From Paludibacteraceae bacterium (GTDB lineage Bacteria; Bacteroidota; Bacteroidia; Bacteroidales; Paludibacteraceae), in contig JAFZNG010000002.1 of assembly GCA_017551025.1 (NCBI GenBank), positions 1 to 59,766 on the forward strand: a stretch of DNA of 59,766 nucleotides, given 5' to 3'. Below, one piece after another: positions 299-57,660 of the stretch (its first letter is position 1; each line of letters opens with the position of its first letter). The position numbers were made by a program, and so were the translations under genes. The notes beneath the pieces were generated by a model that was given only the letters and a program-made list of their open reading frames with translations, made no database searches and had not been told where the DNA came from.

Positions 299-1444
299 AT
301 GACAAATTACACTTTCGACGAGATTCATCAGCAACCGGCTATGTGGCGGAAGGAGCTGGAAAATCTACTAGCAAAGAAGGCTGAGATTAGTGCATTCATG
401 CACAAGTATTTGACTCCGGACACGGATATCGTGCTGACGGGTGCAGGTACATCGGCGTTTATCGGCGATGCGCTGTGTCCGGTGATGCGTGGTATGTGGC
501 GCAACGTGCGTTCGGTGCCGACAACGGATCTGGTGACGCATGCAAAATACCTGTTGGATGCAGAGCGTCCGTTGTTGCTCATCAGTTTTGCCCGTTCGGG
601 TAACAGCCCGGAGAGTGTAGCTGCGGTGAACTTGGCGAATAAGGTTTGCAAGAATGTGGCACATGTGTATATTACCTGCAATGCGCAAGGCAAGCTTGCA
701 TTGCAGGCTAAGGCTAATGGCGAAAGGTTGGAGGCTAAGGTTGACAACAATATTCTGTTGCTGTTGTTGCCGGAAGAGACGGACGATAAGAGCTTGGCAA
801 TGACGAGTAGCTTCTCGACGATGCTGCTGACCTGCTTGATGCTCGGTCATATCGACACCTTGGAGCAGGATAAGGAGCAGATCGAGAAGGCTGCTAAGAA
901 TGCGGAGGCGGTTATCACTGAGTATGAAGAGAAGTTGAAAGAGATCGCGAGCCGTCCGTTCGAGAGAGGTGTATTCCTGGGCTCGGGTGCGCTGAAGGGT
1001 ATCGCAGAAGAGTGCCATCTGAAACTGCAAGAGTTAACGGATGGAGCAGTCGTTTGTAAGTTTGACAGCTTCTTGGGATTCCGTCACGGACCGAAGGCTG
1101 TGGTGAACTCGAAGTCGATAGTAGTTTATCTGATGACCGATCAGGAAGAGGTGCAACGGTATGAGCGGGACCTGGTGAAGCAGGTAGATGCCAACAACAC
1201 GCCGGTGGCACAGATCATCGTGATCGGCGGTAAGGCTCCGGAGTTGCCGGGTGTAAAGGCTGATTTGGTGGTTCGGATGCCCTACGGCTACGAGGAGAAT
1301 ACGTTCTATGGCATCGTGCCGTTTGTGGTAGTGGGACAGCTGTTAGGGTTCTACGCTTCGAAGGCACACGGGTTGAATCCGGATGCTCCGAGCGTAAGCG
1401 GAAATATACATAGGGTCGTAGAAGGTGTTACGATCTATGAATAG
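299..1444 (+). CDS. agaS: AgaS-like SIS sugar-phosphate isomerase/deaminase
   Basis: 381-residue cytosolic protein with two SIS domains. The first carries GAGTSAF (about 48-54) and SFARSGNSPES (96-106), the typical sugar-phosphate loop. The second carries GSGALKGIAEE and HLKLQELTDG (about 220-241), followed by FLGFRHGPKAV. AgaS proteins convert galactosamine-6-phosphate to tagatose-6-phosphate plus ammonia, or act as Tag6P ketose/aldose isomerases. ATG 299 was chosen over GTG 251 because the latter sits only 11 nt after the -7 box and gives a non-homologous N-terminus. It is the first gene of an operon with a GatZ-like protein, an esterase and a PfkB kinase, which supports galactosamine/tagatose metabolism. 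The exact substrate is inference. Confidence 0.82.
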   Translation: MTNYTFDEIHQQPAMWRKELENLLAKKAEISAFMHKYLTPDTDIVLTGAGTSAFIGDALCPVMRGMWRNVRSVPTTDLVTHAKYLLDAERPLLLISFARSGNSPESVAAVNLANKVCKNVAHVYITCNAQGKLALQAKANGERLEAKVDNNILLLLLPEETDDKSLAMTSSFSTMLLTCLMLGHIDTLEQDKEQIEKAAKNAEAVITEYEEKLKEIASRPFERGVFLGSGALKGIAEECHLKLQELTDGAVVCKFDSFLGFRHGPKAVVNSKSIVVYLMTDQEEVQRYERDLVKQVDANNTPVAQIIVIGGKAPELPGVKADLVVRMPYGYEENTFYGIVPFVVVGQLLGFYASKAHGLNPDAPSVSGNIHRVVEGVTIYE

Positions 1445-1550
1445 ACCGCTTCGCTCAAAGAAAAAAGACCGCTGGCGCTCAAAGAAAAAAGCCTAATTAC
1501 CCCATAGAGAGACGAAACATAATAGGCTTTGAGTGCGTAGCACGTTCTTT
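1443..1550. repeat. Hairpin-word repeats after agaS
   Basis: Two tandem units of about 24 bp begin at the agaS stop codon TAG. Each reads AGACCGC, a small inverted repeat, then CTCAAAGAAAAA (1443-1465 and 1466-1489). A related unit lies in the opposite orientation at about 1528-1550 (CTTTGAGTGCGTAGCACG then TTCTTT). It is linked by GCCTA (1491-1495) and TAGGC (1523-1527), an inverted pair. Related units follow the next gene at 2813-2871. Confidence 0.75.
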
Positions 1551-1587
1551 CGACTTTTATCTTTCGACTAATAAAAATCAAATAAAT

Positions 1588-2814
1588 ATGGCAAAGACAG
1601 AGAATATCCTTCGGGTGATGGAGGAACGGAAGAAAGCAACAGGAGTTCCGATGACATTGTTTGCAGCATGTCCGAACTCGTTGGCAGTGATCAAGGCTTC
1701 ATTCAGAGCCGCAAAAAGAAATAACTCACCTATTTATTTTGCAACCACGCTGAACCAGGTGGACTGCGACGGTGGTTATACCGGCATGACGCAGGAGATG
1801 TTCACGAAGATTTTGGCGCGTGAGGCTGCAGCTGTGCACTACACGGGTCCGTACGTAGTAGCGATCGATCACGGTGGTCCGTGGTTGAAGGACAAACAAT
1901 CGATCGAGCGCTGGGACACCGAGCGTGCGATGAACGGCGTGAAGAAGAGTTATGAGGCGGCTATTCTGGCCGGTTATGACCTGATTCACGTGGATCCGAC
2001 GGTAGATATTTTCCTGCCGAAGGGTGAGATCATCGACATTCACGTAGTTGTAAAACGTACGGTTGAACTGATCAAGCATGCGGAGGATTTCCGTAAGGCA
2101 CATAATATCGCGCCTATTTCGTACGAAGTAGGTACTGAAGAGGTGCACGGTGGTCTGGCTGACGAGAAGACGTTTGACACCTTCCTGGAGGGACTGAAGG
2201 CCGGTTTGAAGGAAGTAGGACTGGAGGATGTATGGCCTTGCTTCATCGTAGGTAAGGTAGGAACGGACCTGCATACCACGTTCTTTGATCCGGAGGTAGC
2301 TAAGGCGCTGACGGCTAAGGTGCGTCCGTACGGCAGTTATATCAAGGGTCACTACAGTGACGATGTTGAAAACCCGGAGGATTATCCGAAGGCCGGTATG
2401 GGTGCTGCAAACGTTGGTCCGGAGTTCACGATGAACGAGTACGACGCGCTGGCTGAACTGGAAGAGGAAGAGAAAAAATTGTATGCAGAGGGCAAGATTG
2501 CGCAGTTGAGTAACATGACGCAAGTGCTCTGGCAATGCGTATATGACTCGAACCGTTGGAAGAAGTGGTTGCACGGCGAAGAGGTAGGCAAGGACCTGAA
2601 GGACTGCACGAAGGAGCGTCAGTTGTGGCTCGTGAAGACCGGTTGCCGATATATCTGGCAGAAGCCGGAGGCACTCGTAGCTCGTCAGACCCTGTATGAG
2701 AACCTGGAGCGTCTGGGCATCCATGCAGAGGAGGTTGTGCTGATGCGCATCGAGCATAATATGGATAAATATTATAACGCCTTCAATATAGTAAATCTGA
2801 ACGATTTCCTATAG
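1588..2814 (+). CDS. gatZ: GatZ/KbaZ-like tagatose pathway protein
   Basis: 408 residues, full length for the D-tagatose-1,6-bisphosphate aldolase non-catalytic subunit family (COG4573). Visible family motifs are AIDHGGPW (92-99), HVDPTVD (134-140), SYEVGTEEVHGG, FIVGKVGTDLH and GMGAANVGPEFT, all expected of the TIM-barrel fold. Classical GatZ/KbaZ stabilises a class II aldolase GatY/KbaY, but no such partner is encoded in this window. Relatives of this family have been reported to epimerise fructose-6-P and tagatose-6-P at C4, which would make an aldolase unnecessary here. It follows agaS and precedes an esterase and a PfkB kinase, separated from both by hairpin-word spacers. The family call is firm; the activity is open. 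Confidence 0.85.
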   Translation: MAKTENILRVMEERKKATGVPMTLFAACPNSLAVIKASFRAAKRNNSPIYFATTLNQVDCDGGYTGMTQEMFTKILAREAAAVHYTGPYVVAIDHGGPWLKDKQSIERWDTERAMNGVKKSYEAAILAGYDLIHVDPTVDIFLPKGEIIDIHVVVKRTVELIKHAEDFRKAHNIAPISYEVGTEEVHGGLADEKTFDTFLEGLKAGLKEVGLEDVWPCFIVGKVGTDLHTTFFDPEVAKALTAKVRPYGSYIKGHYSDDVENPEDYPKAGMGAANVGPEFTMNEYDALAELEEEEKKLYAEGKIAQLSNMTQVLWQCVYDSNRWKKWLHGEEVGKDLKDCTKERQLWLVKTGCRYIWQKPEALVARQTLYENLERLGIHAEEVVLMRIEHNMDKYYNAFNIVNLNDFL

Positions 2815-2871
2815 GACCGCGCTTCGCGCTGAAAGAATAAAGACCGTGAGTTTCACTCACTGAAAGAACAA
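2813..2871. repeat. Hairpin-word repeats after gatZ
   Basis: Two tandem units start at the stop codon TAG of the preceding gene. At 2813-2840, GACC is followed by GCGC-TTC-GCGC and TGAAAGAATAA. At 2841-2871, GACC is followed by GTGAG-TTTCA-CTCAC and TGAAAGAACAA. The flanks are conserved, while the stems differ in sequence but remain self-complementary. They resemble the units at 1443-1550 and fill almost the whole gap to the next ATG. Confidence 0.75.
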
Positions 2872-2880
2872 AGACTTATT

Positions 2881-4242
2881 ATGAAAAAGCATTTTTATCT
2901 GATCGCGTTGCTGGCGGTGATGCTGGGGGCTTGTGGATGTGAGCACAAGCAGCCCGTGGATGATCCACAGCAAGAAGAGTTTCAGTTGAAAGAGACTGTG
3001 GCGCACGTGTGGAGCGGGAAGCCGGAGTTCACCTTTCAACTGACGAACCCAGGTTCGAGCGTAGTGACGTACAGCACGAAGGTCGTTATCGCCACCGACA
3101 AGGTGGATAGCGAAGGTAAGCATATCGTCCTGTACACGCTGGAGGACAATGTCTCGCTGGACGCCAACGGCAAGAAGAATCACGCGATGACGACCAAGGA
3201 GAAGATGGACCCGGGTATTTATCAAGCCAAGTGCTACGTGAATGGTACGATGACGGAGGAGTTCAATTTTGCGATTGATCCGTTTAAGATCACTTCGGTG
3301 GATGATAAGCCGGCAGATTTCGATGCATTCTGGCAAGCGGCTAAGGATCAGTTGGCAGCCGTGGATATGAATGCGCAACTGACGCTGATTCCGGAGCGGA
3401 GCAATGCGAACTGCAAGGTGTATCTGGTGGAGATGAACTCGGTGCCGGACGGACTGGAGGGTGAACCTGTGAAGATTCGCGGCTATTACTGCGAACCGCA
3501 GGACGGCCAAAAGCATCCGGTGATCATGCACTATTACGGTTATGACACGCAGGGTTATACGGGTGAAGTAGCCTGTCCGTGGGGTGGTCAGTACGCGGAG
3601 TTCTACCTGTCACATCGCGGTCAGTACTTGAACAACCGTCCCGCCGGCACGAATCTGGGTGTAGCGGAGGCTACGGAGAATATCTACGGCGATTGGTTCC
3701 GATACAATCTGGGGCAGAAGGACACCTATTATTATAGGGGCGCGTATATGGACGTCTGCCAGTCGATTCGCTTTATGGCGACGCGTGCGTCGAGCGACAT
3801 GAGCAAGTTGTTTGCCGAGGGGTCGAGTCAAGGTGGTGCGCTGACGTACGTAGCCGCTGCACTGAGCGACTGGCCGTTCACGGCAATCGCTGCCAACGTG
3901 GCGTTTATGGGTGATTTTGCGGACGCCTACCATATTCCGAGTCTGGCTTACTGGGAGATCAGCGACCATTACTGGGAGGACGGAGTACCTCAGGAGCAGA
4001 GTATGCAGTACTTGCCGTACTTCGATATCAAGCACATGACGCCGCGTATCTCGTGTGCGGTATTGGCTTCGAGCGGATTGGCGGATGATGTATGTCCGGC
4101 TCGTCTGAACCTGGTGCCGTTTAACAACCTGGCCACTCCGGCAGATAAGAAAGACTATATCATCGAGCCGGAAATGGGACACAGTTATCCGGGGAACTGG
4201 GAGAAGCGGAAGAATGAGTTGTTTAACAAATATTTGAAATAA
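2881..4242 (+). CDS. AXE1-family acetyl esterase lipoprotein
   Basis: 453 residues. The N-terminus is a lipoprotein signal with lipobox LGAC (Cys at about 18), so the protein is exported and lipid-anchored. After a beta-rich N-terminal region, the C-terminal half matches the acetyl xylan esterase / cephalosporin-C deacetylase family (AXE1, alpha/beta hydrolase). It shows the nucleophile elbow GSSQGG with Ser316, a probable acid in GLADDVCP (about residue 400) and a His in EMGHSYPG (about 438). It probably removes O-acetyl groups from a glycan. It lies in the agaS operon, 2 bp upstream of the PfkB kinase gene, linking deacetylation to sugar-phosphate metabolism. Confidence 0.85.
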   Translation: MKKHFYLIALLAVMLGACGCEHKQPVDDPQQEEFQLKETVAHVWSGKPEFTFQLTNPGSSVVTYSTKVVIATDKVDSEGKHIVLYTLEDNVSLDANGKKNHAMTTKEKMDPGIYQAKCYVNGTMTEEFNFAIDPFKITSVDDKPADFDAFWQAAKDQLAAVDMNAQLTLIPERSNANCKVYLVEMNSVPDGLEGEPVKIRGYYCEPQDGQKHPVIMHYYGYDTQGYTGEVACPWGGQYAEFYLSHRGQYLNNRPAGTNLGVAEATENIYGDWFRYNLGQKDTYYYRGAYMDVCQSIRFMATRASSDMSKLFAEGSSQGGALTYVAAALSDWPFTAIAANVAFMGDFADAYHIPSLAYWEISDHYWEDGVPQEQSMQYLPYFDIKHMTPRISCAVLASSGLADDVCPARLNLVPFNNLATPADKKDYIIEPEMGHSYPGNWEKRKNELFNKYLK

Positions 4243-5189: not shown

Positions 5190-5243
5190 CTAGATGACCT
5201 AGATACTCTAGATGCTCTAGATACTCTAGATAGACTAGATTTT
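5190..5243. repeat. 9-bp tandem repeat CTAGATnnn x6
   Basis: Six consecutive 9-bp units begin CTAGAT (GAC, ACT, GCT, ACT, AGA and TTT as the variable triplets). They start on the base after the pfkB-family stop codon and end 22 bp before the next ATG. Confidence 0.95.
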
Positions 5244-9587: not shown

Positions 9588-10685
9588 ATGAAAAAATTAT
9601 TTTTTATTCTTTCAGTTACATCTCTGCTCTTCACGGCATGCAGCAGCACGCCTGAAACAGAGAGTGAATCACCGGCAGACAAGATCCTGCTGAAGGATTT
9701 TGCACCCGTAGTAGTAAATAATATTCCCAAGACTCATGTTGAGCGTGCTAAGTTTGACATCATCGACATGCATGCCCATGATTACGCTTCTTCGGAAGAG
9801 GAGATAAAGCAATGGTGCGAGACGATGGATAAGGTGGGTGTGCTGAACACAGCTATCATGCATTGCTCGTGGATCGGTCGTCCGTTTGAGGAGTTTGTGG
9901 AGGCTTATGCGCCGTATAAGGATCATTTCCGTTTCTGGTGCTGCTTTGACTATACGGGCATTGACAGCGATGAGTGGCCTGCGAACGCGATCGCGACCCT
10001 GGAACGTTGCAAAGAAATGGGTGCTGTAGGTGTTGGTGAGTTAGGCGATAAGGGCGAAGGTGATACCTACGCTCGTCCGGCAGACGGCAAGGACATTCAT
10101 ATTGATGATCCGCGCGTAAAACCGCTGATCGAGAAGGCCGGAGAACTAAAGATGCCGATCAGCATTCATATTGCCGAACCGTACTGGATGTATCTGCCTA
10201 TGGATGAGACGAATGACGGACTGGTGAATGCGGTGAACTGGCACGTAGATACGACCAATTGTTATGGTTATGAGAAGCTGATGACAACCTTTGAGAATGC
10301 GGTGCGCGAGAACCCGGGCACGATCTTTATTGCTTGTCATTATCTGAATATGACGCACGATCTGCCTCGTCTGGGTGCGCTGCTGGATAAGTATTCTAAC
10401 CTGTACTTCGATATCTCTGCCCGCGTAGCGGAGTCGGCACACACCCCGCGTGCTACGCGTGAGTTCTTGATTAAATATCAGGACCGTGTACTCTTCGGCA
10501 CGGATAATGGTATGGATGCCGAGATGTATCAAAACATTTTCCGCGTACTGGAGACCGCCGACGAGCATTTCTACATGCCAGAGTCGGCCTACCACTGGGC
10601 ATTGTCGGGTTTCGACCTGCCGGAAGAGGTACTCAAGAAACTCTACCACGACAACGCGGAGCGGATACTAACGGAGTATAAATAA
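9588..10685 (+). CDS. Amidohydrolase-family lipoprotein
   Basis: 365 residues. Signal peptide ends at lipobox FTAC (Cys 18), so the protein is exported and lipid-anchored. The rest is a TIM-barrel amidohydrolase of the Amidohydro_2 type. Metal-binding HxH is at 62-64 (DMHAHDY), later histidines are in ISIHIAEP and IACHYLNM, and the catalytic-type Asp306 is in LFGTDNGMD. Members hydrolyse or decarboxylate small substrates, and an exported one in a glycan locus is uncommon. ATG 9588 is used because the 30 bases upstream overlap the promoter start region. It is the first gene of the SUS operon. Confidence 0.82.
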   Translation: MKKLFFILSVTSLLFTACSSTPETESESPADKILLKDFAPVVVNNIPKTHVERAKFDIIDMHAHDYASSEEEIKQWCETMDKVGVLNTAIMHCSWIGRPFEEFVEAYAPYKDHFRFWCCFDYTGIDSDEWPANAIATLERCKEMGAVGVGELGDKGEGDTYARPADGKDIHIDDPRVKPLIEKAGELKMPISIHIAEPYWMYLPMDETNDGLVNAVNWHVDTTNCYGYEKLMTTFENAVRENPGTIFIACHYLNMTHDLPRLGALLDKYSNLYFDISARVAESAHTPRATREFLIKYQDRVLFGTDNGMDAEMYQNIFRVLETADEHFYMPESAYHWALSGFDLPEEVLKKLYHDNAERILTEYK

Positions 10686-10745
10686 TCAGAATAATCAGAA
10701 TAATCAGAGTAATCAGAATAATCCGAGTAATCTGAGTAATCCGAT
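10683..10745. repeat. 9-bp tandem repeat TAATCnGAn x7
   Basis: Seven consecutive 9-bp units: TAATCAGAA, TAATCAGAA, TAATCAGAG, TAATCAGAA, TAATCCGAG, TAATCTGAG, TAATCCGAT. The first TAA is the stop codon of the amidohydrolase gene. The array ends 6 bp before the next ATG. Confidence 0.95.
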
Positions 10746-10751
10746 AAATCT

Positions 10752-15630: not shown

Positions 15631-15631
15631 A

Positions 15632-24132: not shown

Positions 24133-24140
24133 CAATTCGT

Positions 24141-24195
24141 AATTTTTAATTTTTAATTTTTAATTAGCCTTTAGCCACTAACCATTAGCCTTTAA
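24141..24195. repeat. AATTTTT array and TTAGCC words at pgk stop
   Basis: AATTTTT is repeated 3.6 times at 24141-24165. It is followed by GCCTTTAGCCACT and CATTAGCCTTTAAT. The pgk stop codon (24185-24187, minus strand) lies inside this block, and the last codons of pgk (Lys-Gly) are part of the word. The 15-mer ATTAGCCTTTAGCCA (24163-24177) recurs inside ddl at 29854-29868. Confidence 0.85.
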
Positions 24196-28281: not shown

Positions 28282-28286
28282 TTTCT

Positions 28287-28316
28287 ATTTACGATTTAAC
28301 GATTTACGATGTACGA
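28287..28316. repeat. ATCGTAAAT word spacer
   Basis: On the minus strand the last codons of the polyprenyl synthase gene, its stop and the gap to the next ATG read as imperfect repeats of ATCGTAAAT / ATCGTTAAAT / ATCGTACAT. The stop codon TAA (28304-28306) is inside one copy. Confidence 0.8.
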
Positions 28317-29248
28317 TTTTCTAATTTATTAGCCAGTTGACGCAGGAAGTCCGTGGCTTCGTTCTGCGGTAGTGTATCCAGCAACCCCAGGGCTTCGGCG
28401 GTATGCTGCGCAATGGCTTGTTCGGCTATGCCGCGCACACCTATTTCATCATATAGCGCCGTCATGCCGGCTATCTTCTCCTTGCCCGGTGCATGCTTTA
28501 GCCATTCGGCCAGTCTTGTCCGTTGCACCTCGTCGGCACGGTCACGCGCCGTAAGCAACAAATAGGTCTTCTTATTGCAACAGATATCCCCACCGATGGC
28601 TTTGCCAAAGGTTTTTGGATCACCATAAACGTCCAGCAGGTCATCCTGGATCTGGAACGCCAGCCCCAAATGGATGCCACAGTCATAAATCGCCTGTTGG
28701 GCCTCGTCCGGCGCACCGGCGATATACGCTCCCGTACGCAACGCATTGGCCAGCAGCACCGAAGTCTTGAGCCGTATCATCTCGATATATTCCTCCAGGC
28801 GCACATCCTCGCGCTGCTCAAAATCTACATCGTATTGCTGCCCCTCGCATATCTCCGTTGCCATCTCATTGAACCACCGCAAGGTCTTGTGCAACTTGTC
28901 TGCCGGCACCTGCGAGAGCAACCGATACGCCTCTATCATCATCTGGTCGCCCGAGAGAATAGAGGTATTCTCGTTCCATCGCACATGCACCGTCTCGCGG
29001 CCGCGACGCACTTCAGCATGGTCCATCACATCGTCGTGGAGCAGCGTGAAGTTATGAAACACCTCCAGCGCCAAGGCAGCAGGCAGCGCGTCTTCTTCCC
29101 TTCCGCCGAACATACGGCAGGCCGTCAGCGCCAACTGCGGACGCAGTCGCTTCCCTCCTGCACGCAACGTGTAGGCAATCGGCGCATACAGTCCCTGCGG
29201 CTCCTTGCTCCAATCCAGCGATGCTATGGCACTATGGATATCCACCAT
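28304..29248 (-). CDS. Short-chain polyprenyl diphosphate synthase
   Basis: 314 residues. The first aspartate-rich motif is LLHDDVMDHAEVRRG and the second is FQIQDDLLDVYGD. RAGGKRLRP near the N-terminus is the isopentenyl diphosphate site. It condenses isopentenyl diphosphate onto allylic diphosphates. A Phe five residues before the first motif favours a short C15-C20 product, but this is inference. ATG 29248 is preferred to a TTG one codon earlier. The gene follows ddl with only the AATTTTT word in between. Confidence 0.9.
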   Translation of the reverse strand: MVDIHSAIASLDWSKEPQGLYAPIAYTLRAGGKRLRPQLALTACRMFGGREEDALPAALALEVFHNFTLLHDDVMDHAEVRRGRETVHVRWNENTSILSGDQMMIEAYRLLSQVPADKLHKTLRWFNEMATEICEGQQYDVDFEQREDVRLEEYIEMIRLKTSVLLANALRTGAYIAGAPDEAQQAIYDCGIHLGLAFQIQDDLLDVYGDPKTFGKAIGGDICCNKKTYLLLTARDRADEVQRTRLAEWLKHAPGKEKIAGMTALYDEIGVRGIAEQAIAQHTAEALGLLDTLPQNEATDFLRQLANKLENRTS

Positions 29249-29249: not shown

Positions 29250-29274
29250 AATTTTTAATTTTTAATTTTTAATT
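29250..29274. repeat. AATTTTT x3.6 between ddl and polyprenyl synthase
   Basis: The same 25-base AATTTTT array as at 24141-24165. It contains the TAA stop of ddl (29269-29271) and ends one base before the ATG of the next gene, so the whole gap is the repeat. Confidence 0.9.
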
Positions 29275-30285
29275 CGAAAACGCGTTTTCGATGATATCCT
29301 CCATGACATCTTTGATATCCAATCCTGCGGCACGAACCTGCTGCGGGATGAAACTCGTCGGCGTCATGCCCGGCGTGGTATTCACCTCCAACAGCATCGG
29401 CACAATCTCGCCTTCCACCTTCTGGTCGCGTAAGCCTATCAGTATCCAGTCCACACGGATGATACCGTTCGCACCGATAATATCGTATATGCGAAGTGTC
29501 ATCTCTTGCACCTTGTCGCGCACCTCGTCCGGGATACGCGCCGGAGTGATCTCGTCCACCTGCCCCTTGTACTTGGCATCGTAATCAAAGAACTCGTTCT
29601 TGGTCACTACCTCCGTTACAGGGAAGGCTACGGCTTTATCCTTGGTCTTATACACGCCGCAAGTTATCTCCGTACCGCGCATATAGCCCTCACATATTAC
29701 CTCATCGCCCTCCTTGAAGGCCGCCTCGATTGCGGGCAGGATCTGGTCCGGTGTCTTCACTTTCGTACAACCGAAACTGCTACCGCCTACATTGCTCTTA
29801 ATAAAGCAAGGGAATCCCAACTCATTGGCAATTTCGGCTTTTAGCTTTTTGCCATTAGCCTTTAGCCATTCTGCCTTGCGCAGCAGTATGCTCGGCGCAA
29901 TCTTAAAGCCGAAGCCCGACAGGTAGTGGTTGCAAGCGTATTTGTTAAACGTCAGCGCAGCAGCCAGCACGCCACAACAGCTGTAAGGGATACGAAGCAT
30001 GTCCAGATAGCCTTGCAGCAGACCATTCTCGCCCGGCGTACCGTGAATCGTGATATACGCAAAGTCGAAGCTGTGCTTTACGCCCCCGCGCGTAAAAGAA
30101 AAATCATTCTTATCGATCGCGCATCCATCCTCGGTATGCCAGTCTTTTCCAGAGAAAACCACGATTGTTGTATCGTATTTCTCCGCATCGATAAATGTCT
30201 TCAATCCGGCCGCGGAACGCAGGCTCACCTCGTGCTCCGAACTGTCTCCGCCGGCAATAATTGCGATATGTTTTTTGTCTTGCAT
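29269..30285 (-). CDS. ddl: D-alanine--D-alanine ligase
   Basis: 338 residues. ATP-grasp enzyme of peptidoglycan synthesis. Motifs are GGDSSEHEVSLRSA (11-25), HGTPGENGLLQGYLDM (81-96), CFIKSNVGGSSFG, EGYMRGTEITCGV, RVDWIL and LLEVNTTPGMTPTSF. ATG 30285 was chosen over an upstream ATG-less extension because the -7 box lies at 30310-30317. Residues about 138-151 (RKAEWLKANGKKLKAE) look longer than in relatives and are encoded by TTAGCC-type words also found in spacers. Confidence 0.95.
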   Translation of the reverse strand: MQDKKHIAIIAGGDSSEHEVSLRSAAGLKTFIDAEKYDTTIVVFSGKDWHTEDGCAIDKNDFSFTRGGVKHSFDFAYITIHGTPGENGLLQGYLDMLRIPYSCCGVLAAALTFNKYACNHYLSGFGFKIAPSILLRKAEWLKANGKKLKAEIANELGFPCFIKSNVGGSSFGCTKVKTPDQILPAIEAAFKEGDEVICEGYMRGTEITCGVYKTKDKAVAFPVTEVVTKNEFFDYDAKYKGQVDEITPARIPDEVRDKVQEMTLRIYDIIGANGIIRVDWILIGLRDQKVEGEIVPMLLEVNTTPGMTPTSFIPQQVRAAGLDIKDVMEDIIENAFSN

Positions 30286-30398: not shown

Positions 30399-30442
30399 AC
30401 CGTAGGATAACCGTAAGATACCCGTAAGATAACCGTAGGATA
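30399..30442. repeat. 11-bp tandem repeat ACCGTAnGATA x4
   Basis: Four tandem 11-bp units: ACCGTAGGATA, ACCGTAAGATA, CCCGTAAGATA, ACCGTAGGATA. They lie in the 217-bp spacer between ddl and the ComEA-like gene, which has no gene in it. Confidence 0.95.
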
Positions 30443-30470
30443 AAGCCAATTTCTCACACAAATCATGCTT

Positions 30471-32445: not shown

Positions 32446-32447
32446 TT

Positions 32448-32461
32448 TGGTGTATGGTGTA
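32448..32461. repeat. TGTATGG word between comEC and xseA
   Basis: Two copies of TGGTGTA fill the gap between the comEC stop (32462-32464, minus strand) and the xseA ATG (32445). It is the same 7-bp word as in the array at 11-94. Confidence 0.8.
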
Positions 32462-36542: not shown

Positions 36543-36577
36543 GATATTATTGTTGTGTGTTTATATTTTTCCGGCTA

Positions 36578-36585
36578 CAAAGTTA
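36578..36585 (-). promoter_or_regulatory. -7 box of malQ
   Basis: CAAAGTTA on the plus strand reads TAACTTTG on the minus strand, about 35 nt before the malQ ATG at 36542. Confidence 0.7.
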
Positions 36586-36609
36586 CGCAAAATTTTTCAA
36601 TTGAACAAA

Positions 36610-42353: not shown

Positions 42354-42361
42354 ATCTCTCG

Positions 42362-42394
42362 TCATTACGTCATGACGTAATTACGTTATTACGA
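42362..42394. repeat. ATTACGTAATTACG word between pta and ackA
   Basis: Imperfect repeats of TCATTACG, CATGACG, TAATTACG and TTATTACG. The palindromic 13-mer GACGTAATTACGT (42374-42386) occurs reverse-complemented at 57630-57642 between tsaB and the porW-like gene. Confidence 0.8.
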
Positions 42395-42415
42395 AAATTT
42401 TAACTTTTAAAATAC

Positions 42416-43606
42416 ATGAAAATTCTGGTTCTGAACTGCGGTAGCAGTAGTATTAAATACAAGCTCTTCAACATGGAGAGCAAGCAGGTAATGGCACAGG
42501 GCGGCATCGAGAAGATCGGTTTGCCGGATTCATTTCTGCTAGTCAAACTGCCGAATGGCGAGAAAGTAAAATTCGAGAAATCGATGCCGGAGCATACGGT
42601 AGGTATCGAACTGATCCTGGAGAAACTGGTGGATTCGCAGATCGGTTGCATCAAAGACCTCAAGGAGATCAACGCCGTAGGTCACCGCGTAGTGCACGGC
42701 GGCGAGAAGTTCAACAAGTCGGTGCTCATCACGCCGGAGGTGAAAGAGATGATTATCAAGTGCGTAGAACTGGCTCCGCTGCATAACCCTGCTAACCTGA
42801 AAGGTATTGATGCGATTGAGAAGATCCTGCCGGGTGTTCCGCAGGTAGCTGTCTTCGATACGGCTTTCCATCAGACCATGCCGGATTATGCGTACATGTA
42901 TGCCCTGCCCTACGAGCTTTATGAGAAATACGCTATCCGCCGCTACGGCTTCCACGGCACGAGTCACCGCTACGTATCGGCCCGCGTATGCGAGTTCCTG
43001 GGCGTAGACCCCAAGGGTAAGAAGATCGTAACGGCGCATATCGGTGGTGGCGGCAGTTGCACGGCTGTCATGGATGGCAAGTCTGTAGATACCTCTATGG
43101 GTCTGACGCCGGTAGAAGGACTGGTAATGGGTACCCGTGCCGGTGATCTGGATCTGGGAGCAGCAACGTTTATCATGGATAAGGAGCACCTGGATACAAC
43201 CGCATTTAACAATCTGGTGAACAAGAAATCCGGTCTGCTGGGCGTTAGCGGTGTATCGAGCGACTGCCGTGATATCGAGGCGGCTATCAACGAGGGCAAC
43301 AAGCGTGCCGACCTGGCCCGTAAAATGTTCATCTACCGCGTGAAGAAATATATCGGTGCATACGCCGCCGCTATGAACGGCATAGATATCCTGGTCTTCA
43401 CCGCCGGCATCGGTGAGAACGATCCGTATATCCGTGCAGAGATCATGAAGGGTCTGAGTTATCTCGGCATTGAGTTGGACGAAGAAGCCAACAACGTACG
43501 CGGCGAAGAGCGCATCATCTCCAAGAAGGGCTCGAAGGTAACGGTTTGCCTCATCCCGACCGACGAAGAACTGATGATTGCTACGGATACGGCCGCACTC
43601 GTATAA
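42416..43606 (+). CDS. ackA: Acetate kinase
   Basis: 396 residues. ASKHA-fold kinase with KILVLNCGSSSIKYKLF (1-17), VGHRVVHGGEKF, FDTAFHQTMP, RRYGFHGTSHRYV, HIGGGGSC and FTAGIGENDPYIR. It makes acetate and ATP from acetyl phosphate. The length and ends are standard. It is downstream of pta and upstream of a GH13 gene. Confidence 0.97.
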   Translation: MKILVLNCGSSSIKYKLFNMESKQVMAQGGIEKIGLPDSFLLVKLPNGEKVKFEKSMPEHTVGIELILEKLVDSQIGCIKDLKEINAVGHRVVHGGEKFNKSVLITPEVKEMIIKCVELAPLHNPANLKGIDAIEKILPGVPQVAVFDTAFHQTMPDYAYMYALPYELYEKYAIRRYGFHGTSHRYVSARVCEFLGVDPKGKKIVTAHIGGGGSCTAVMDGKSVDTSMGLTPVEGLVMGTRAGDLDLGAATFIMDKEHLDTTAFNNLVNKKSGLLGVSGVSSDCRDIEAAINEGNKRADLARKMFIYRVKKYIGAYAAAMNGIDILVFTAGIGENDPYIRAEIMKGLSYLGIELDEEANNVRGEERIISKKGSKVTVCLIPTDEELMIATDTAALV

Positions 43607-43658
43607 GCAGTACATGAAAAACACACATACTTAACCTAACAAACAAAAAAAACATAGA

Positions 43659-48959: not shown

Positions 48960-48992
48960 AATTTTTAATTCTTAATTTTTAATTTTTAATTT
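48960..48992. repeat. AATTTTT array before SRPBCC gene
   Basis: Four to five copies of AATTTTT/AATTCTT in the gap between the pyrE-like stop (48999-49001) and the SRPBCC ATG (48946). Same word as at 24141 and 29250. Confidence 0.85.
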
Positions 48993-51781: not shown

Positions 51782-53566
51782 ATGGACATCGTCCACCTTC
51801 TACCTGACCACGTAGCCAACCAGATTGCCGCCGGAGAAGTAATCCAGCGGCCTGCTTCGTGTCTGAAGGAGTTGGTGGAGAACAGTCTGGATGCCGGAGC
51901 AACGAATATCCAGGTCATCGTGCGCGATGCCGGACGCACCCTGCTGCAGGTAATCGACAACGGCAAAGGCATGAGCCAGACCGATGCCCGCATGGCCTTT
52001 GAGCGCCACGCTACGAGCAAGATCAGCCGGGTAGACGATCTCTTCTCGTTGCGCACGATGGGTTTTCGTGGCGAAGCACTGGCCAGTATATGCGCCGTAG
52101 CGCAGGTGGAGTTGACTACCCGCCGCGAGGAAGACGAGGTTGGCGTACTGCTGGAGATCGACGGTTCGGAGGTAATCACGCAGGAGCCATGCGCCTGTCC
52201 GGTAGGAACGAATCTGAAGGTCAAAAACCTTTTCTATAACGTACCCGTACGGCGTAAGTTTCTCAAGACCGACCAGACCGAACTGCGCAACCTGCTCACC
52301 GAGTTTTATCATATCGTACTGGTCTATCCGAAGGTGCAATTCACCTTTGTCCACAACGACGAGGTACTGCTCGACCTACCCGTATCCAGCGAGAAGCAAC
52401 GTATCGAAGCTATCTTCGGTCGCAACAATGCCCGTCAGTTCACGAGCAACCTCATCGACCTGCATACCGACACCGACCTGGTATCGATACGCGGTTTCGT
52501 GAGCAAACCCGAGGCGAGCAGCAAGACTTCGCAGCAGTATTTCTTCGTCAACGGACGCTACATGCGTCACCCCTATTTCCACAAGGCCATACTGACCGCT
52601 TATTCGGGCATGTTGCCGGGAGATTATACGCCCTCGTATTTCATCTATTTTGATATCTCGCCGGAGGCTATCGATGTTAACATCCATCCCACAAAGACCG
52701 AGATCAAGTTTGCCGACGAGCAGACAATCTTCCAGATCCTGCTAGCCTCTGTACGCGAAGCGCTGGGTAAGTTCTCACTGGCACCTACGATCGATTTCGA
52801 CCGTGAGGGTGAGATAGAAATGCCGACCCTCAGTGCTGGTAGTTCGCGGATGCCAAACGGACCCGGGCTGCCGCATATTCAGGTAGATCCTACCTACAAT
52901 CCCTTCCGCCCTAAATCCAGCACACCCTCCGGTTGGAGCACACTCTACCCTGACCGTCCGACGGCTACTATGCCAAGTGCCGAACAGGCTCCGCTCTTTG
53001 AGGAGCAGAACATACCTACCGGCGTACCCTACCAGTACGCGGAGCGGTATATCCTATTGCCTACGCGTGAGGGACTGATGATTATCAATCAGCACCGCGC
53101 CCATATATGCGTGGAGTACCACGCACTGCTTCGTCAGTTGCAGGAACATACCGGCCTCAGCCAGCAGTTGCTATTCCAGGAGGTCATCGAACTGACTCCG
53201 GATGAGATAGCCTGTATGGAAACCATCGAGGATGATCTGCGCGCAATAGGTTTTGCCCTCGACCGCTTTAGCAAAACCGCTTACGGAATATCCGGCGTAC
53301 CCGCCCAATTGCAGCAAGGCGATGCGGTAATGCTCGTGCGCGATATTCTGCATGCTGTGATGGAAACGGATGCAAACGTAGCCCAAAAATGGCAGGAACA
53401 AATCGCACTGGCTATGGCGCGCAACATAGCTATTCCCTACGGTAAGACACTGAGCCAAGACGAGATGCAGGATCTATGCGACCGTCTGATGGCGCTCAAG
53501 AACTACGCACGTACACCCGATGGTAAGCGCGTCGTCACGCTACTCAGCGACAACGACCTCCCCTAA
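51782..53566 (+). CDS. mutL: DNA mismatch repair protein MutL
   Basis: 594 residues. GHKL ATPase motifs are NQIAAGEVIQRP, DNGKGM, MGFRGEALASI and VGTNLKVKNLFYNVPVRRKFLK. The C-terminal dimerisation domain starts about 400. Where endonuclease-type MutL has DQHAxxE, this protein has IINQHRAH with Asn436, and no CPHGRP-like motif is seen (AIPYGK instead). Other members of this phylum also deviate from the endonuclease type, usually keeping DQHRAH. MutL coordinates mismatch repair. Its 3' end overlaps the convergent miaB by 27 bp. Confidence 0.95.
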   Translation: MDIVHLLPDHVANQIAAGEVIQRPASCLKELVENSLDAGATNIQVIVRDAGRTLLQVIDNGKGMSQTDARMAFERHATSKISRVDDLFSLRTMGFRGEALASICAVAQVELTTRREEDEVGVLLEIDGSEVITQEPCACPVGTNLKVKNLFYNVPVRRKFLKTDQTELRNLLTEFYHIVLVYPKVQFTFVHNDEVLLDLPVSSEKQRIEAIFGRNNARQFTSNLIDLHTDTDLVSIRGFVSKPEASSKTSQQYFFVNGRYMRHPYFHKAILTAYSGMLPGDYTPSYFIYFDISPEAIDVNIHPTKTEIKFADEQTIFQILLASVREALGKFSLAPTIDFDREGEIEMPTLSAGSSRMPNGPGLPHIQVDPTYNPFRPKSSTPSGWSTLYPDRPTATMPSAEQAPLFEEQNIPTGVPYQYAERYILLPTREGLMIINQHRAHICVEYHALLRQLQEHTGLSQQLLFQEVIELTPDEIACMETIEDDLRAIGFALDRFSKTAYGISGVPAQLQQGDAVMLVRDILHAVMETDANVAQKWQEQIALAMARNIAIPYGKTLSQDEMQDLCDRLMALKNYARTPDGKRVVTLLSDNDLP

Positions 53567-54865
53567 CAATGTAGCTGCCGAGGCCGACGTGATACGCACG
53601 TTGACCAATTCGCCTATATGACGTCCCGCACGCGGGAAGACAACGGTCTTGTACTGACTTGTGCGGCCAAACATATCATCATGGCTGCGCTTGGAGAATC
53701 CTTCTACCAACACTTCTACCGTACGACCTATCTCGCGCTGGTTGGAGGCCAGCGACAATTCGGATTGCAGGGCAATGATCTCGTTCAGTCGGCGCACTTT
53801 CTCCTCCTCCGGGATATTATCCGGCAGGTGTTTGCTGGCATAGGTGCCCGGACGCTCGGAGTACTTGAACATAAAGGCGGTATCGAATCCTACCTCGCGC
53901 ATGAGGCTGAGGGTCTGCTGATGGTCCTCGAGCGTCTCGCCATGGAAACCGCAGAAGACATCCGTACCGATTGTAGCATCGGGAAGAATACGACGAATGG
54001 CTGCTATACGATCCAGATACCACTCACGGGTATATTTACGATTCATGGCCTTTAGGATGGCATTACTACCCGACTGCACCGGTAGATGAATAAACTTGCA
54101 CAGGTTCGGATAACGGGCAATAGTCTCCAGCGTACGATCCGACATATCCTTGGGGTGCGAGGTCGTAAAGCGGATACGCATATCGGGCACTGCCTCGGCT
54201 ACGATGGCCAACAAGTCCGGAAATTCGATCTCCTGATAGTGATAAGAATTGACATTTTGGCCGAGTAGGGTCAACTCCTTGTAGCCCTTTGCCTGCAGGT
54301 CTTTTACTTCACGCAGGATCGATTCTACATCGCGGCTACGTTCACGTCCACGGGTATAGGGTACCACGCAGTAGCTGCAGAAATTATTGCAACCGCGCAT
54401 AATAGAGACAAAGCCGGATATCGTCTTGCCCAGGCGGGCAGGCAGTACGTCGCGATAGGTCTCGGTCGTACTGAGCGTCACGTTGACAGGCTTGAAGCCT
54501 TGCTCGCATTGCGCGATGAGGTTCGGAATATCCATATAGGCATCTGGCCCGGCCACGAAATCTACGCCGCACCGGTCGATCAGTTCCTGCCCCATCCGCT
54601 CGGCCATACAACCGATTACGCCGATTAATTGGCTCTTGGCTTTTGGCTGTTGGCTTTTAGGTTTAGCTTGGAGTTCCTGCAGGCGATGACGCACTTTCTG
54701 CTCGGCATTGTCTCGGATCGAACAAGTATTCAGCAGCAGCACATCCGCCTCATCCATTTGGTCGGTATACTGTGCATCGGTCGTCGTCATAATAGCTGCT
54801 ACAACCTCGCTATCTGCCACGTTCATCTGGCATCCATAGGTCTCTATATAGAATTTTTTAGCCAT
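53540..54865 (-). CDS. miaB: tRNA-2-methylthio-N6-isopentenyladenosine synthase
   Basis: 441 residues. UPF0004 domain (FYIETYGCQMNVADSE and TCSIRDNAEQKV), radical SAM motif CNNFCSYCVVPYTRG, and a C-terminal TRAM domain. It methylthiolates i6A37 of tRNAs using two 4Fe-4S clusters. ATG 54865 matches the family. Residues about 67-79 (AKPKSQQPKAKSQ), just before LIGVIGCMAER, look like a low-complexity insert encoded by TTGGC/TTTTGGC words. The 3' end overlaps mutL. Confidence 0.95.
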   Translation of the reverse strand: MAKKFYIETYGCQMNVADSEVVAAIMTTTDAQYTDQMDEADVLLLNTCSIRDNAEQKVRHRLQELQAKPKSQQPKAKSQLIGVIGCMAERMGQELIDRCGVDFVAGPDAYMDIPNLIAQCEQGFKPVNVTLSTTETYRDVLPARLGKTISGFVSIMRGCNNFCSYCVVPYTRGRERSRDVESILREVKDLQAKGYKELTLLGQNVNSYHYQEIEFPDLLAIVAEAVPDMRIRFTTSHPKDMSDRTLETIARYPNLCKFIHLPVQSGSNAILKAMNRKYTREWYLDRIAAIRRILPDATIGTDVFCGFHGETLEDHQQTLSLMREVGFDTAFMFKYSERPGTYASKHLPDNIPEEEKVRRLNEIIALQSELSLASNQREIGRTVEVLVEGFSKRSHDDMFGRTSQYKTVVFPRAGRHIGELVNVRITSASAATLLGEVVVAE

Positions 54866-54913
54866 TTTTAGTAAAAAAATACGTTTTTTCTTGCGTATGT
54901 CAAAATTTTGTAG

Positions 54914-54921: not shown

Positions 54922-54942
54922 CACCCGCTTTTGAAAAAGCGA

Positions 54943-55016
54943 CGGGATGTGGCGCAGTCCGGTAGCGCAACGGTCTGGGGGACCGGAGGTCGCAAGTTCA
55001 AATCTTGTCATCCCGA
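54943..55016 (+). tRNA. tRNA-Pro (GGG)
   Basis: 74-nt cloverleaf. Acceptor CGGGATG pairs with CATCCCG, D arm GCGC/GCGC, anticodon loop CTGGGGG with anticodon GGG, T arm GCAAG-TTCAAAT-CTTGT. No CCA is encoded. Reads CCC/CCU. The first anticodon-stem pair is A-G, a mismatch. Confidence 0.93.
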
Positions 55017-55017
55017 C

Positions 55018-55053
55018 GAAGAAGAGAGGTCGTAAGACTTCTCTTCTTTTTTT
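55018..55053 (+). terminator. Terminator after tRNA-Pro
   Basis: GAAGAAGAGAGGTC-GTAA-GACTTCTCTTC followed by seven T. It has a stem of about 11 bp with one G-T pair. The convergent porW-like gene stops 16 bp beyond it. Confidence 0.9.
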
Positions 55054-55068
55054 GTTTCAAAGAGCGCG

Positions 55069-57615
55069 TTACCGAGTGGTAGGTTCTATCTCATTGGTTG
55101 CCATAAATTCAGCAAGCACAGGATTGTTGCGTATCAGGCCTATCCACCATGTTGCTTCTTTTTGCGTATCAAACGGTCCTACCTCCAGGGCAAGTCGGCC
55201 GTCGGCGGTCGTCTGACGCCGCAACTCAAAGTCACGCAACAGGAAGACCTCGAAGTTGTAGAGCGCCACTTCATACTGGAGTTGGTTGAAGAGCTGTTCA
55301 TCCTGGCGCGGTAGCACAAGCAGCACCACCGGTTTTTGTTCCTCTATCGAGATATCTCCTGCCTTCGCAGCTTCCTCTTCAGCCGCCTTGGCTGCTTCGT
55401 CAGCCGCTTTCTGGCGTGCATCGGCCAGGTCGTCTTGTCCACCACCCTTCTGGGTCTCCGCACCTTGTCCCATGAGCGCGAGCATATCCTTGGCGCGTGC
55501 ACTCAGTTCGTGGGTAGGATACTGTTCTACCATACGGCGCAACTCTTCTACAAAGGCTGCCTGTCCTTCGGTGCGGGCTTTCGCTACCGCCGCCAGGAAT
55601 AGGAATCGCGGCAGGATCTGCTGCTGGTCGGTCTCGCCGGCTATAGTGACGGCCGTCTCGGCATCCGATTTAACCTGGGTATATTGACGGGCACGGAAGG
55701 CGGCATAGGTGGTCTCGTAGAGCGAGTCAAGCCGTGCGGTGATCTCGGGCCATTGGTCTATCAGCTGCGGCCGCGGGCGGTTCGGACAACGCTCATCGAG
55801 CGTCACCAGCGTTTGGTCGGCCAGCGCCGTATCGCGCAGGTCATAGCGGTAGATTCGCTCCATCTGGGTGAGCGCATCACATATGAGACTATCCGAAGCC
55901 TGCAATTCAGCCTCGGTATGAGGTATCTGCTGGTAGTACATACGCACCGTCGCATCGAGTGTATCGAGCGGATCGGGAGCTACAGTGGAGTCGTTGAGCG
56001 TCAGACTGTCGGTCTCTGCATCATACGTATCCGTCTCGCTCTCGGTGGGCAGCACGCTGACCGACTTAGAGAGTCGGCGCCAATGGTCCTCCAACTGGCG
56101 ATTACCCCAAGTGCGTTGGAACTGCTGACGGCCTTGGCGAATGAGCTGGGCATTATAGAAATACCAGGCGGCTGCCTGTGCACCTCCGCCACCCAGCATG
56201 TTTTGGGTATTGACACTCAGTGGTCCTTCGTCCAGTTCTTTATCGCGTGCCTCCTGCGCCATCTTGATCGAATCACGTCGGCGTTGCTCTTCCTGCTCAC
56301 GGATGAGTCGATGAATCACGGCCAACTGCTCCTCGTCACTCAGTCGGCTGAGTTGCTGGAGCGAGTCCTGGAGCGTAACGGTATTGACATGCGTGATGAG
56401 TTGGTCGAGTACCTCCGAGCGGGCCTGCAGACGGCGATACTCGTCGTGTTCGGTCGAGAAGATCGTGAGAGCCTCGCGGTAGCAGGGTTGCGCTTCGGTA
56501 TACTGTTTGCGCTCGAAATAGAGGTCGCCTGCACGCACCAAGATACCGGCCTTGTCGAGCGTAGCCGATTTGGCGGTGTCGATCGCCTGTTGATAGAGCG
56601 CCAGCGCACGGAGCGTATCGCCCGAGGCGAGCCATATATTGGCCATCGTACCGTAGAGTACGTCCTGATGATCCTTGTGCTTGGATTGGCGCGTCATCTG
56701 ACGCAGACTCTTCAAGCCGGCTTTGCCACGCAGTTCGGCCATGTTAAGACGGGCATGAAAGTCCATGACGGTAGGTGGCGCGAGTCGTATTACGCGGCGG
56801 TAGGCATCGATTGCCTCCTGGCGCTGCCCTTGCGACTGGTAGAGTTGGGCCAGTACGTATTGGAAACGGGGACGATAGACCTTGCGTTTCTCGTGTGGCA
56901 CCGCTATCTTGAGGAAAGGGATCGCCTGGCGGTACTGCTTGGCGTGGATCAGTACATCGGCCGAGGTGGCGCCGTAGAGGTGGGCATGCTTTTGCTTGAG
57001 TGCATCTTGCTGCACCTTGCTAAGCATATCTTCTGCCTCGTACTGCCATCCCAATTCGGCATACGCACGCGCTACCATCAGTTGGCAGCGGGCGATGACA
57101 TCCGGGTCGTAACTGTAGTGACGGATAACGTAGTTGAACGTACCTACAGAACCCAGGAAGTCTCCTTTATGAAATTCTGCCTCACCTAAGCGTATCCACG
57201 CTTCGGAGAGGACAGCGTTGAATTCTTCTTGTTTGAGCCACTCGCGATATTTCGGATCGTTGCGGCGTTTGGGGTCGGGTTTAGGTTTCGCTTTGATAGA
57301 ATGGAGTTTGATGGACTTACGGCATTTTTCAATCGTGCGGTCCATCTGTGAGGTAGCCGCTTGGGCGGCCTTATGGTCGCTGACGGGATAGAGGGCGAGT
57401 ACGCCCGTGTAGTCATCCTCAGCAGCTTTCTGGATAGCGCGCAGTCCGTCCTCATAGGCGATGTTGCCGTTGTAGAGGATATTGTAGCGCACCTTGGTCT
57501 GATGGAAGGAGCGCGACGCGCGAGTGTTCTTCTGCGTAGAACAAGCAGACAATAATATTAGTCCCGCGAGGACTACTACAGAGAAGATGTTATATTTTAT
57601 ATTTGATATTTTCAA
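55069..57615 (-). CDS. porW: PorW/SprE-type TPR lipoprotein of T9SS
   Basis: 848 residues, signal ending at lipobox LSAC (Cys about 25). TPR-like helices run from about 125 to 420 (AWIRLGEAEFHKGDFLGSVGTFNYVIRHY, YVLAQLYQSQGQRQEAIDAYRRVIRLAP, ILVRAGDLYFERKQYTEAQPCYREAL). A charged region about 425-470 precedes the diagnostic NMLGGGGAQAAAWYFYNAQLIRQGRQQFQRTWGNRQLEDHWRRLSK-type segment (shown here in part), followed by acidic and TPR-like tail regions. These match SprE/PorW lipoproteins needed for type IX secretion and gliding. No in-frame ATG precedes the signal peptide, so TTG 57615 is proposed. A word spacer separates it from tsaB. Confidence 0.82.
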   Translation of the reverse strand: MKISNIKYNIFSVVVLAGLILLSACSTQKNTRASRSFHQTKVRYNILYNGNIAYEDGLRAIQKAAEDDYTGVLALYPVSDHKAAQAATSQMDRTIEKCRKSIKLHSIKAKPKPDPKRRNDPKYREWLKQEEFNAVLSEAWIRLGEAEFHKGDFLGSVGTFNYVIRHYSYDPDVIARCQLMVARAYAELGWQYEAEDMLSKVQQDALKQKHAHLYGATSADVLIHAKQYRQAIPFLKIAVPHEKRKVYRPRFQYVLAQLYQSQGQRQEAIDAYRRVIRLAPPTVMDFHARLNMAELRGKAGLKSLRQMTRQSKHKDHQDVLYGTMANIWLASGDTLRALALYQQAIDTAKSATLDKAGILVRAGDLYFERKQYTEAQPCYREALTIFSTEHDEYRRLQARSEVLDQLITHVNTVTLQDSLQQLSRLSDEEQLAVIHRLIREQEEQRRRDSIKMAQEARDKELDEGPLSVNTQNMLGGGGAQAAAWYFYNAQLIRQGRQQFQRTWGNRQLEDHWRRLSKSVSVLPTESETDTYDAETDSLTLNDSTVAPDPLDTLDATVRMYYQQIPHTEAELQASDSLICDALTQMERIYRYDLRDTALADQTLVTLDERCPNRPRPQLIDQWPEITARLDSLYETTYAAFRARQYTQVKSDAETAVTIAGETDQQQILPRFLFLAAVAKARTEGQAAFVEELRRMVEQYPTHELSARAKDMLALMGQGAETQKGGGQDDLADARQKAADEAAKAAEEEAAKAGDISIEEQKPVVLLVLPRQDEQLFNQLQYEVALYNFEVFLLRDFELRRQTTADGRLALEVGPFDTQKEATWWIGLIRNNPVLAEFMATNEIEPTTR

Positions 57616-57622
57616 TGTATTT

Positions 57623-57657
57623 CGTTATTACGTAATTACGTCATTTCGTAATTACGA
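57623..57657. repeat. CGTAATTACG word between tsaB and porW-like gene
   Basis: CGTTATTACG, CGTAATTACG, TCATTTCG and TAATTACG fill the gap after the tsaB stop (57661-57663) up to the porW-like start at 57615. The 13-mer ACGTAATTACGTC (57630-57642) is the reverse complement of one in the pta-ackA spacer. Confidence 0.8.
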
Positions 57658-57660
57658 CAA

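Follow-up and report, generated by a model that had tools for sequence, protein, structure and literature searches.

Results

The DNA analyzed here is a stretch of 59,766 bases (the window, bases 1-59766 of contig C13) from the 1,937,726-base draft genome of a Paludibacteraceae bacterium, an assembly of 36 contigs that is 95.27% complete. Many spacers between the genes of this genome hold arrays of short tandem repeats, most often with a 7-bp unit. In this genus such arrays are common, and in the other Bacteroidota that we sampled they are rare. For one protein encoded in the window, the nearest records belonged to metagenome-assembled genomes (MAGs) of Paludibacteraceae or other Bacteroidales, the six nearest showing 89-96% amino-acid identity; the window is probably of gut origin, judging from the records of its relatives, several of which came from the stomachs of cattle or sheep.

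Arrays in spacers

The window and 40 further stretches of the genome made up our own sample, 851 kb in all, with genes taken from a home-made caller, so that starts are approximate. Spacers of 20-300 bp were scored, and an array was accepted when its score was at least 9 and was equalled by at most one of 200 dinucleotide shuffles (P<=0.01). The first-pass annotation of the window had described tandem repeats in spacers between co-oriented genes. These repeats are real and, in this sample, exceed the shuffles in 124/275 co-directional spacers. They are also more widespread than had been described, as 10/26 convergent and 7/37 divergent spacers carry them and they are therefore not limited to co-oriented genes. 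The two halves of the sample agreed (58/133 and 66/142 co-directional spacers). Among the 124 arrays the period was 7 in 81 cases, 8 in 15, 9 in 11, 11 in 6, and 14 in 6, and arrays were found in 94/165 spacers of 30-110 bp, 13/49 below 30 bp, and 17/61 above 110 bp. Exclusion by promoters was tried and set aside as an explanation for which spacers bear arrays, the difference between those with TAnnTTTG (25/70) and those without it (99/205) being modest.

The genus is a large one, and 178 genomes were searched. The identical test, applied to 24 other genomes of the genus, was passed by 46/198 spacers, and in another genus of the family by 1/6. Outside the family, arrays were found in 3/132 spacers from other families of the order, 2/94 from other orders of the class, and 2/110 from other classes of the phylum, or 7/336 when these are pooled.

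Thirteen sites in the window had been singled out in the first-pass annotation, and Tandem Repeats Finder (TRF) detects arrays at most of them. When the ungapped tandem score inside each spacer was compared to 500 dinucleotide shuffles, seven sites were clear (10683, 5190, 24141, 1443, 42362, 48960, and 57623, all with P=0.002), three were weak (29250, P=0.012; 32448, P=0.016; 47789, P=0.030), and three failed (28287, P=0.323; 20497, P=0.509; 2813, P=0.303). At 2813, two gapped copies of a unit with a variable hairpin are recognized by eye and are invisible to an ungapped test; the TRF array at 28287-28319 leaves its spacer and crosses a gene end. The clearest case is the spacer at 10686-10751, where a 9-mer including the TAA stop occupies nearly the whole gap up to the next ATG. 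Four long exact words had been said to recur between distant spacers, and each was indeed present twice in the window and 0 times in 100 shuffles; one copy (29854-29868) of one of them, ATTAGCCTTTAGCCA, lies within a called gene. The arrays of the window are collected in Table 1.

Table 1. Tandem arrays in the window, with the P value of the ungapped, spacer-only test where one was obtained.
Position	Repeat	Setting	P
11-94	GTATGGT array, period 7	precedes first called gene (299-1444)	
1443-1491	two copies of 24-bp GACCGCTTCGCTCAAAGA-type unit	start in TAG stop of gene ending at 1444	0.002
2815-2880	two gapped copies (by eye) of GACCG-hairpin-CTGAAAGAA unit	behind TAG stop	0.303
5190-5240	CTAGATNNN array, period 9	begins at stop codon	0.002
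10681-10748	TCNGARTAA array, period 9	includes TAA stop; nearly fills spacer 10686-10751	0.002
24140-24194	AATTTTT array, then ATTAGCC units	reaches spacer end	0.002
28287-28319	ATTTACG units	from spacer 28282-28303 into gene end	0.323
29250-29274	AATTTTT array, period 7	fills 20-bp spacer, overlaps gene end	0.012
29840-29870	TTTAGCC array	within called gene 29269-30285 (-)	
30399-30443	ACCGTAAGATA array, period 11	spacer	
32446-32461	two TGGTGTA copies	fill 16-bp spacer	0.016
42360-42393	CGTNATTA array, period 8	upstream of acetate kinase-like gene 42416-43606	0.002
48960-48992	AATTTTT array, period 7	spacer	0.002
54629-54655	TTGGCTC array, period 7	inside miaB (53540-54865, -); encodes KPKSQQPKAKSQ; +4 residues vs solved relative	
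57618-57656	ATTACGTA array, period 8	spacer	0.002
57889-57923	CCGCTCA array, period 7	inside tsaB (57661-58389, -); encodes about INGERLSVSGERE	

The GTATGGT array is long and nearly perfect and lies at the left contig end, where the assembly may have broken. A dispersed unit of the form GACCG-hairpin-CTGAAAGA, of which 1443-1491 and 2815-2880 are examples, varies in the letters of its hairpin, with pairing that by eye seems kept; it often stands directly behind a TAG stop, occurs also at the compared loci of other species, and reads like DRFAER in the Dxs loops of other species. The word GACCGCTTCGCT occurs 14 times in our own sample, against 0 expected. Another hairpin word, CCCCACCCCGACCCTCCC...GGGAGGG, is found in spacers of other species (L024, L233, L237, and L035) and is perhaps seen as SPTLPSREG in Dxs loops, and CCCTCCC is rarer than expected in our own sample (14 against 81).

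Position relative to stop and start codons

The arrays had been described as anchored on the upstream stop codon. What stands of this claim is a preference for the stop side: among 58 of our own arrays, those with slack were nearer the stop in 21 cases and nearer the start in 7, and 12/58 entered the upstream gene by at least one codon, against 2.1 when the flanks of other genes were swapped in (0/300 swaps reach this value). Most of the overlap with the stop codon itself, on the other hand, is predicted by uniform placement, with 19/58 stops covered against 17.3 expected, and the stop codon as generator of the arrays was rejected on this ground, with gene entry and the stop-side excess remaining. 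Swapped flanks gave a stop-cover expectation of 12.1, or 15.2 with flanks having the same stop codon, and 0/300 swaps reached 19 in either; the start was covered in 4/58 arrays, against 17.3 under uniform placement and 0.7 by swap (1/300 reach). It follows from the swaps that overlap with gene ends is genuine for a minority of the arrays, and that the rest fill space as the start side stays clear. Stop overlap was weaker in the genus sample (4/41; swap mean 1.2, same-stop swap 2.7).

Over the 124 arrays, ATG was found 19 times on the sense strand and 47 times on the other, and stop triplets 396 and 331 times, respectively. The word ACGTCATT lies on one strand only relative to genes (7/7), because ATG is avoided, and AAAAATT arrays occur on both strands. 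The stop-side position fits a filter, with few ATG on the sense strand and room before the start, combined with the minority of arrays that overlap gene ends.

Words shared within and between species

With the AAAAATT family set aside, the remaining 21 heptamer arrays of our own genome yielded 8 identical word pairs, against 0.75 for letter-shuffled words; 19 heptamers of the genus yielded 5 shared pairs (0.93 when shuffled), and seven 9-mers yielded 3 (0.02 when shuffled). The pattern TCNGARTAATCNGARTAATCNGA, which represents the TCNGARTAA family, has 46 matches here and at most 14 in any other genome, and is present in 14/101 genus genomes, among which its reversed control had no matches. 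Three GTTGAAA units in a row, instead, match twice here and 25 times in one other genome (G234), with presence in 42/101 genus genomes; in this case a reversed control is uninformative because the reversed word is a rotation of itself. These counts indicate that species differ in which shared words abound.

In the 9-mer family (17 arrays, 102 units), positions 1, 2, 4, and 5 were off consensus in 0, 2, 3, and 0 units, and position 3 was A in 31, C in 26, G in 31, and T in 14, a contrast that is partly built in, as the search fixed 7/9 positions in one unit and 4 in the next, and further units matched 5/7 fixed positions. Eight of the 17 arrays lie wholly within called genes, and both between and inside genes we noted that positions 3, 6, and 9 vary freely and positions 1, 2, 4, and 5 scarcely. 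A coding origin, with the variable positions corresponding to third codon positions, was considered and rejected: neither strand is stop-free, and at an array inside a gene (C1:75450) the variable base is the second of its codon, a single case worked by hand. Expansion driven by hairpins, to which the apparent self-complementarity of the 8- and 9-mer words had pointed, was rejected as well. Letter-shuffled words were just as self-complementary as the heptamers (3.74 columns, against 3.70 observed) and the 11-mers (5.78, against 5.83 observed), and for 8- and 9-mers an excess held per array (2/300 shuffles reach) and failed per distinct family (29/300 and 168/300).

Arrays inside genes

Under a stricter score of 16, called coding sequence of our own genome (769 kb) contained 67 arrays, or 8.7 per 100 kb, compared to 3.5 in the genus; outside it the densities were 0.4 (other families), 1.4 (other orders), and 0.5 (other classes). 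Fifty-four of the 67 fell in gene bodies, no closer than 150 nt to the start and 45 nt to the stop, and 35 of these 54 had period 7. Coding heptamer-type words were equal to an intergenic word in 22/39 cases, against 3.9 for shuffled words. The idea of a process aimed at intergenic gaps finds no support, as the same words are found in the bodies of 41/642 called genes.

Ten host genes, 8 of them outside the window, were scanned against NCBIfam. Dxs, GltX, MutS, ArgS, MnmE, Rho, MiaB, and TsaB scored above the curated cut-off, and so did an alanine racemase with a MurF-like part, for which the fused model was slightly under its own cut-off; an RluA-family synthase was one bit below. Compared to the best solved relative, the arrays coincide with 16 and 8 extra residues in GltX, 7 in MutS, and 4 in MiaB, and in Dxs with 5 at the first loop, 6 at the third, and none at the second, while the alignment of TsaB is too weak at the array for an insert to be called. 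All in-gene arrays of AAAAATT type (7/7) have base changes where a perfect repeat would give an in-frame TAA. We also noted a stop-free variant encoding KLKIKNE that is nearly the same in five genes (C2:57633, C2:58604, C2:77411, C8:19941, and C16:46856), as if the coding-compatible version had itself been copied.

When Dxs and GltX were compared with those of 29 other genomes each, the six loops differed in letters and most also in length, and the same loop carried different words in different species. Tandem structure was found in 58/173 testable loops, against 30/865 random stretches from the same genes, and in 52/167 once our own six loops, which had been chosen for their arrays, were left out.

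Turnover between species

A comparison of orthologous spacers, suggested in the first-pass annotation, was made at two array-bearing junctions, and most species' spacers proved unlike each other, many of them being tandem. At 10686-10751, 16/29 spacers of at least 20 nt (our own included) were tandem at P<=0.01 and 5 more at P<=0.05, and only 4/406 spacer pairs were at least 70% alike, with downstream proteins 75-87% identical to our own. At the acetate kinase junction (42354-42415), 10/24 spacers (again including our own) were tandem at P<=0.01 and 2 more at P<=0.05; 5/276 pairs were at least 70% alike, with a kinase 82-98% identical. Two array-free junctions, 36543-36609 with its promoter-like TAACTTTG and 43607-43658, were alike among the closest relatives. 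Closer pairs, with about 86-95% DNA identity and one genome for each species, include array spacers that are identical, others that have the same length with changed units, and others again that gain or lose single units or are replaced; the single-unit duplications seen between close species are of 7 and 9 nt.

Over 228 kb aligned from 16 such close-species pairs, we counted 71 indels of at least 15 nt, of which 20 contained a tandem by a strict test, 9 of them in called genes. Lengths that are multiples of 3 were found for 23/33 indels of this size in called genes and for 18/38 elsewhere. Presence in one species with absence from a close relative was also seen for some arrays. The clearest case is a 36-nt run of GTTGAAA-type units that lies in frame in one species (L032) and is absent in the other (L029), with flanks 82% alike; in this one clear case, a GTTGAAA-type word is lacking from the immediate flanks of the site without the array.

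Discussion

The arrays described here are limited to a clade, share their words across spacers, genes, and species, turn over between relatives, and are filtered in coding sequence. On balance we favor, with some reserve, the view that they represent a lineage-specific library of tandem words that copying and slippage spread and selection filters. Such a library would consist mostly of 7-bp words, along with others of 8, 9, 11, and about 16-24 bp, present genome-wide in stretches of roughly 25-60 nt. New copies would originate from existing arrays, stretches of which are copied elsewhere (through template switching or short-patch repair, for instance), and the copied arrays might then lengthen, shorten, and shuffle through slipped-strand steps. 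Selection would remove most of them, the survivors between genes being mostly those on the stop side with few sense-strand start codons, and the survivors within genes those that keep the reading frame open and sit in variable loops. The stop-codon pattern would thus be mainly the work of this filter, and partly that of arrays starting in, or growing into, gene ends. An active process generating or copying words into intergenic gaps had been proposed in the first-pass annotation. Because words recur beyond what letter-shuffled words give and orthologous spacers are unlike, it is plausible that some process makes or moves words; its targeting to gaps or to the stop codon is the part that our results do not support. 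A bolder proposal, which we advance only tentatively, is that a word-copying process inserts ready-made arrays from a shared library into spacers and housekeeping genes across the genus, replacing operon spacers and rewriting Dxs and GltX loops with heptamer-encoded peptides.

Several of our own results weigh against copying from a library. The strict test found no tandem structure in 51/71 indels of at least 15 nt, only 4/9 tandem indels in called genes were multiples of 3, 115/173 Dxs and GltX loops were non-tandem, and so were 12/24 spacers at the acetate kinase junction, even at P<=0.05. AAAAATT, which accounts for 27/48 of our own heptamer arrays, is a low-complexity word that could have arisen many times independently, and spacers without arrays share the ATG and stop bias, more weakly. 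Orthologues of in-gene arrays, furthermore, were compared for 2/41 genes (Dxs and GltX), and no copying event or enzyme was observed.

The main rival is that local slippage alone is responsible, the arrays being tandem duplications made in place, with 7 nt favored by the polymerase and with composition and stop codons making words recur. Among the long simple repeats of prokaryotes, heptamers are said to be the most frequent, and polymerase slippage has been proposed for them (Mrazek 2007, as cited in PMC4679880; PMC4692102). The duplications of 7- and 9-nt units between close species agree with slippage, as do the 12/58 arrays that include a gene end, as if seeded there. Slippage explains the unit changes and perhaps AAAAATT; however, it does not explain why words other than AT-rich ones are shared beyond letter-shuffled words, why single words abound in some species and are missing from most, or how the 36-nt array came to a site whose close relative has no such word in its immediate flanks (one clear case). 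As a complete explanation we consider it unlikely.

We give little credit to a mobile element, such as a RAYT with its palindromes, as the agent that spreads the arrays. A single gene with a Y1_Tnp match does exist in the genome (C4:18703-19452, L258), about 0.7 kb from a TCNGARTAA array, and its product is presumably a RAYT or RAYT-like transposase; some word families, moreover, have hairpins. The heptamer arrays, however, sit at different sites without common ends, as judged by eye, the transposase is single-copy, and neither Ku nor RVT_1 had a match in the genome. On these findings, which are not decisive, we rejected RAYT, Ku, and reverse transcriptase as the cause.

Quite improbable, in our opinion, is that the words are binding sites or elements of post-transcriptional control under selection, as proposed by others for TAACTGA in Beggiatoaceae. 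The near-invariant and saturated positions of the 9-mer family would suit such a role, and so would the one-strandedness of several words relative to genes, as for ACGTCATT. The bias of the latter is nonetheless explained by ATG avoidance, AAAAATT occurs in either orientation, the same words are found inside genes, and the same junction has different words in different species. Finally, an assembly artefact is scarcely credible even though the relatives are MAGs by title (where titled), in which repeats may be collapsed or broken, and the longest array lies at a contig end, since arrays differ between separately assembled species, sit in genes that are open and bear curated names, and seldom occur in those other genomes of the phylum that were sampled alike.

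If true, the copying and filtering of a word library would give bacterial chromosomes a rapid natural source of spacers for operons and of new loops for proteins. It would make testable how heptamers spread, why 7 is favored, and how well housekeeping enzymes tolerate foreign peptides, and it would caution against taking spacers and loops of this genus for conserved sites of regulation or function unless they have been compared.

Comparison with known systems

As the first-pass annotation had stated, these arrays are not CRISPR (clustered regularly interspaced short palindromic repeats), which have repeats of tens of bases with unique spacers between them; the units here are 7-24 bp long and arranged head to tail. 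Cyanobacterial genomes contain dispersed families of 7-bp tandem units, the short tandemly repeated repetitive (STRR) sequences, which resemble the arrays reported here. We know of no STRR in the bodies of housekeeping genes. STRR are cyanobacterial, while the closest relatives here are Bacteroidales; the STRR words themselves were not searched.

In titles and abstracts, a coverage that leaves out most subscription papers, no arrays were described in this genus, nor heptamer arrays in housekeeping genes, and the covered parts of the papers cited below contain no match for a library of many words in both spacers and housekeeping genes. Short tandem repeats are said to reach a high density in Bacteroidota (PMC12699852), and heptamer-derived satellites have been noted in other bacteria (PMC6749651). 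Palindromic elements of Rickettsia form in-frame inserts in unrelated genes, whose proteins they change (PMC10969869); these elements are palindromic and about 150 bp long, in contrast to tandem words of 7-24 bp that also fill spacers. The arrays here do not fit that description, as heptamers are no more self-complementary than shuffled ones (3.70 against 3.74) and the arrays are far shorter. In-frame insertion of the kind seen in Rickettsia may occur here too: there are alignment gaps in solved relatives (Dxs, GltX, MutS, and MiaB) and one clear presence/absence case in a gene between close species, but only 4/9 tandem indels in called genes are multiples of 3. The tandem repeats of Borgs are, like ours, genome-wide, fast evolving, and found both in spacers and in open reading frames (ORFs); their units, however, are about 18-21 nt in the examples given, perfect, and always divisible by three in ORFs (PMC9879509), and here imperfect heptamers are found in ORFs.

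The arrays agree with the long simple-sequence repeats of prokaryotes in a wide sense, in which, as here, units of 5-11 nt exceed chance and 7 is the commonest (81/124 in our arrays). In those repeats, units not divisible by three are kept out of coding sequence, whereas 35/54 of our gene-body arrays have period 7. Direct repeats of TAACTGA have been described in Beggiatoaceae, Cyanobacteria, and five Bacteroidetes, with two sets in Paludibacter propionicigenes (PMC4679880), and share with the present arrays the heptamer tandems in spacers, the stop codons in one word, and the strain-specific histories. That system has one favored word, mostly just before start codons, whereas here the start is rarely covered and the words are many; TAACTGA was not among our own array words as listed, which involved no dedicated search for it. 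The GGGAATC and GGGGAYT heptamers of Xanthomonas and Nostoc (PMC4692102) resemble our arrays in lying in spacers between aligned genes, many of them no more than 50 bp from the stop codon and some extending over it, in being rare between divergent genes, and in varying in length between close species. They form one G-rich word family, whose repeats mostly remain between the same genes when two species are compared; here, in contrast, the words are many, differ between species at the same junction, and are found in gene bodies as well.

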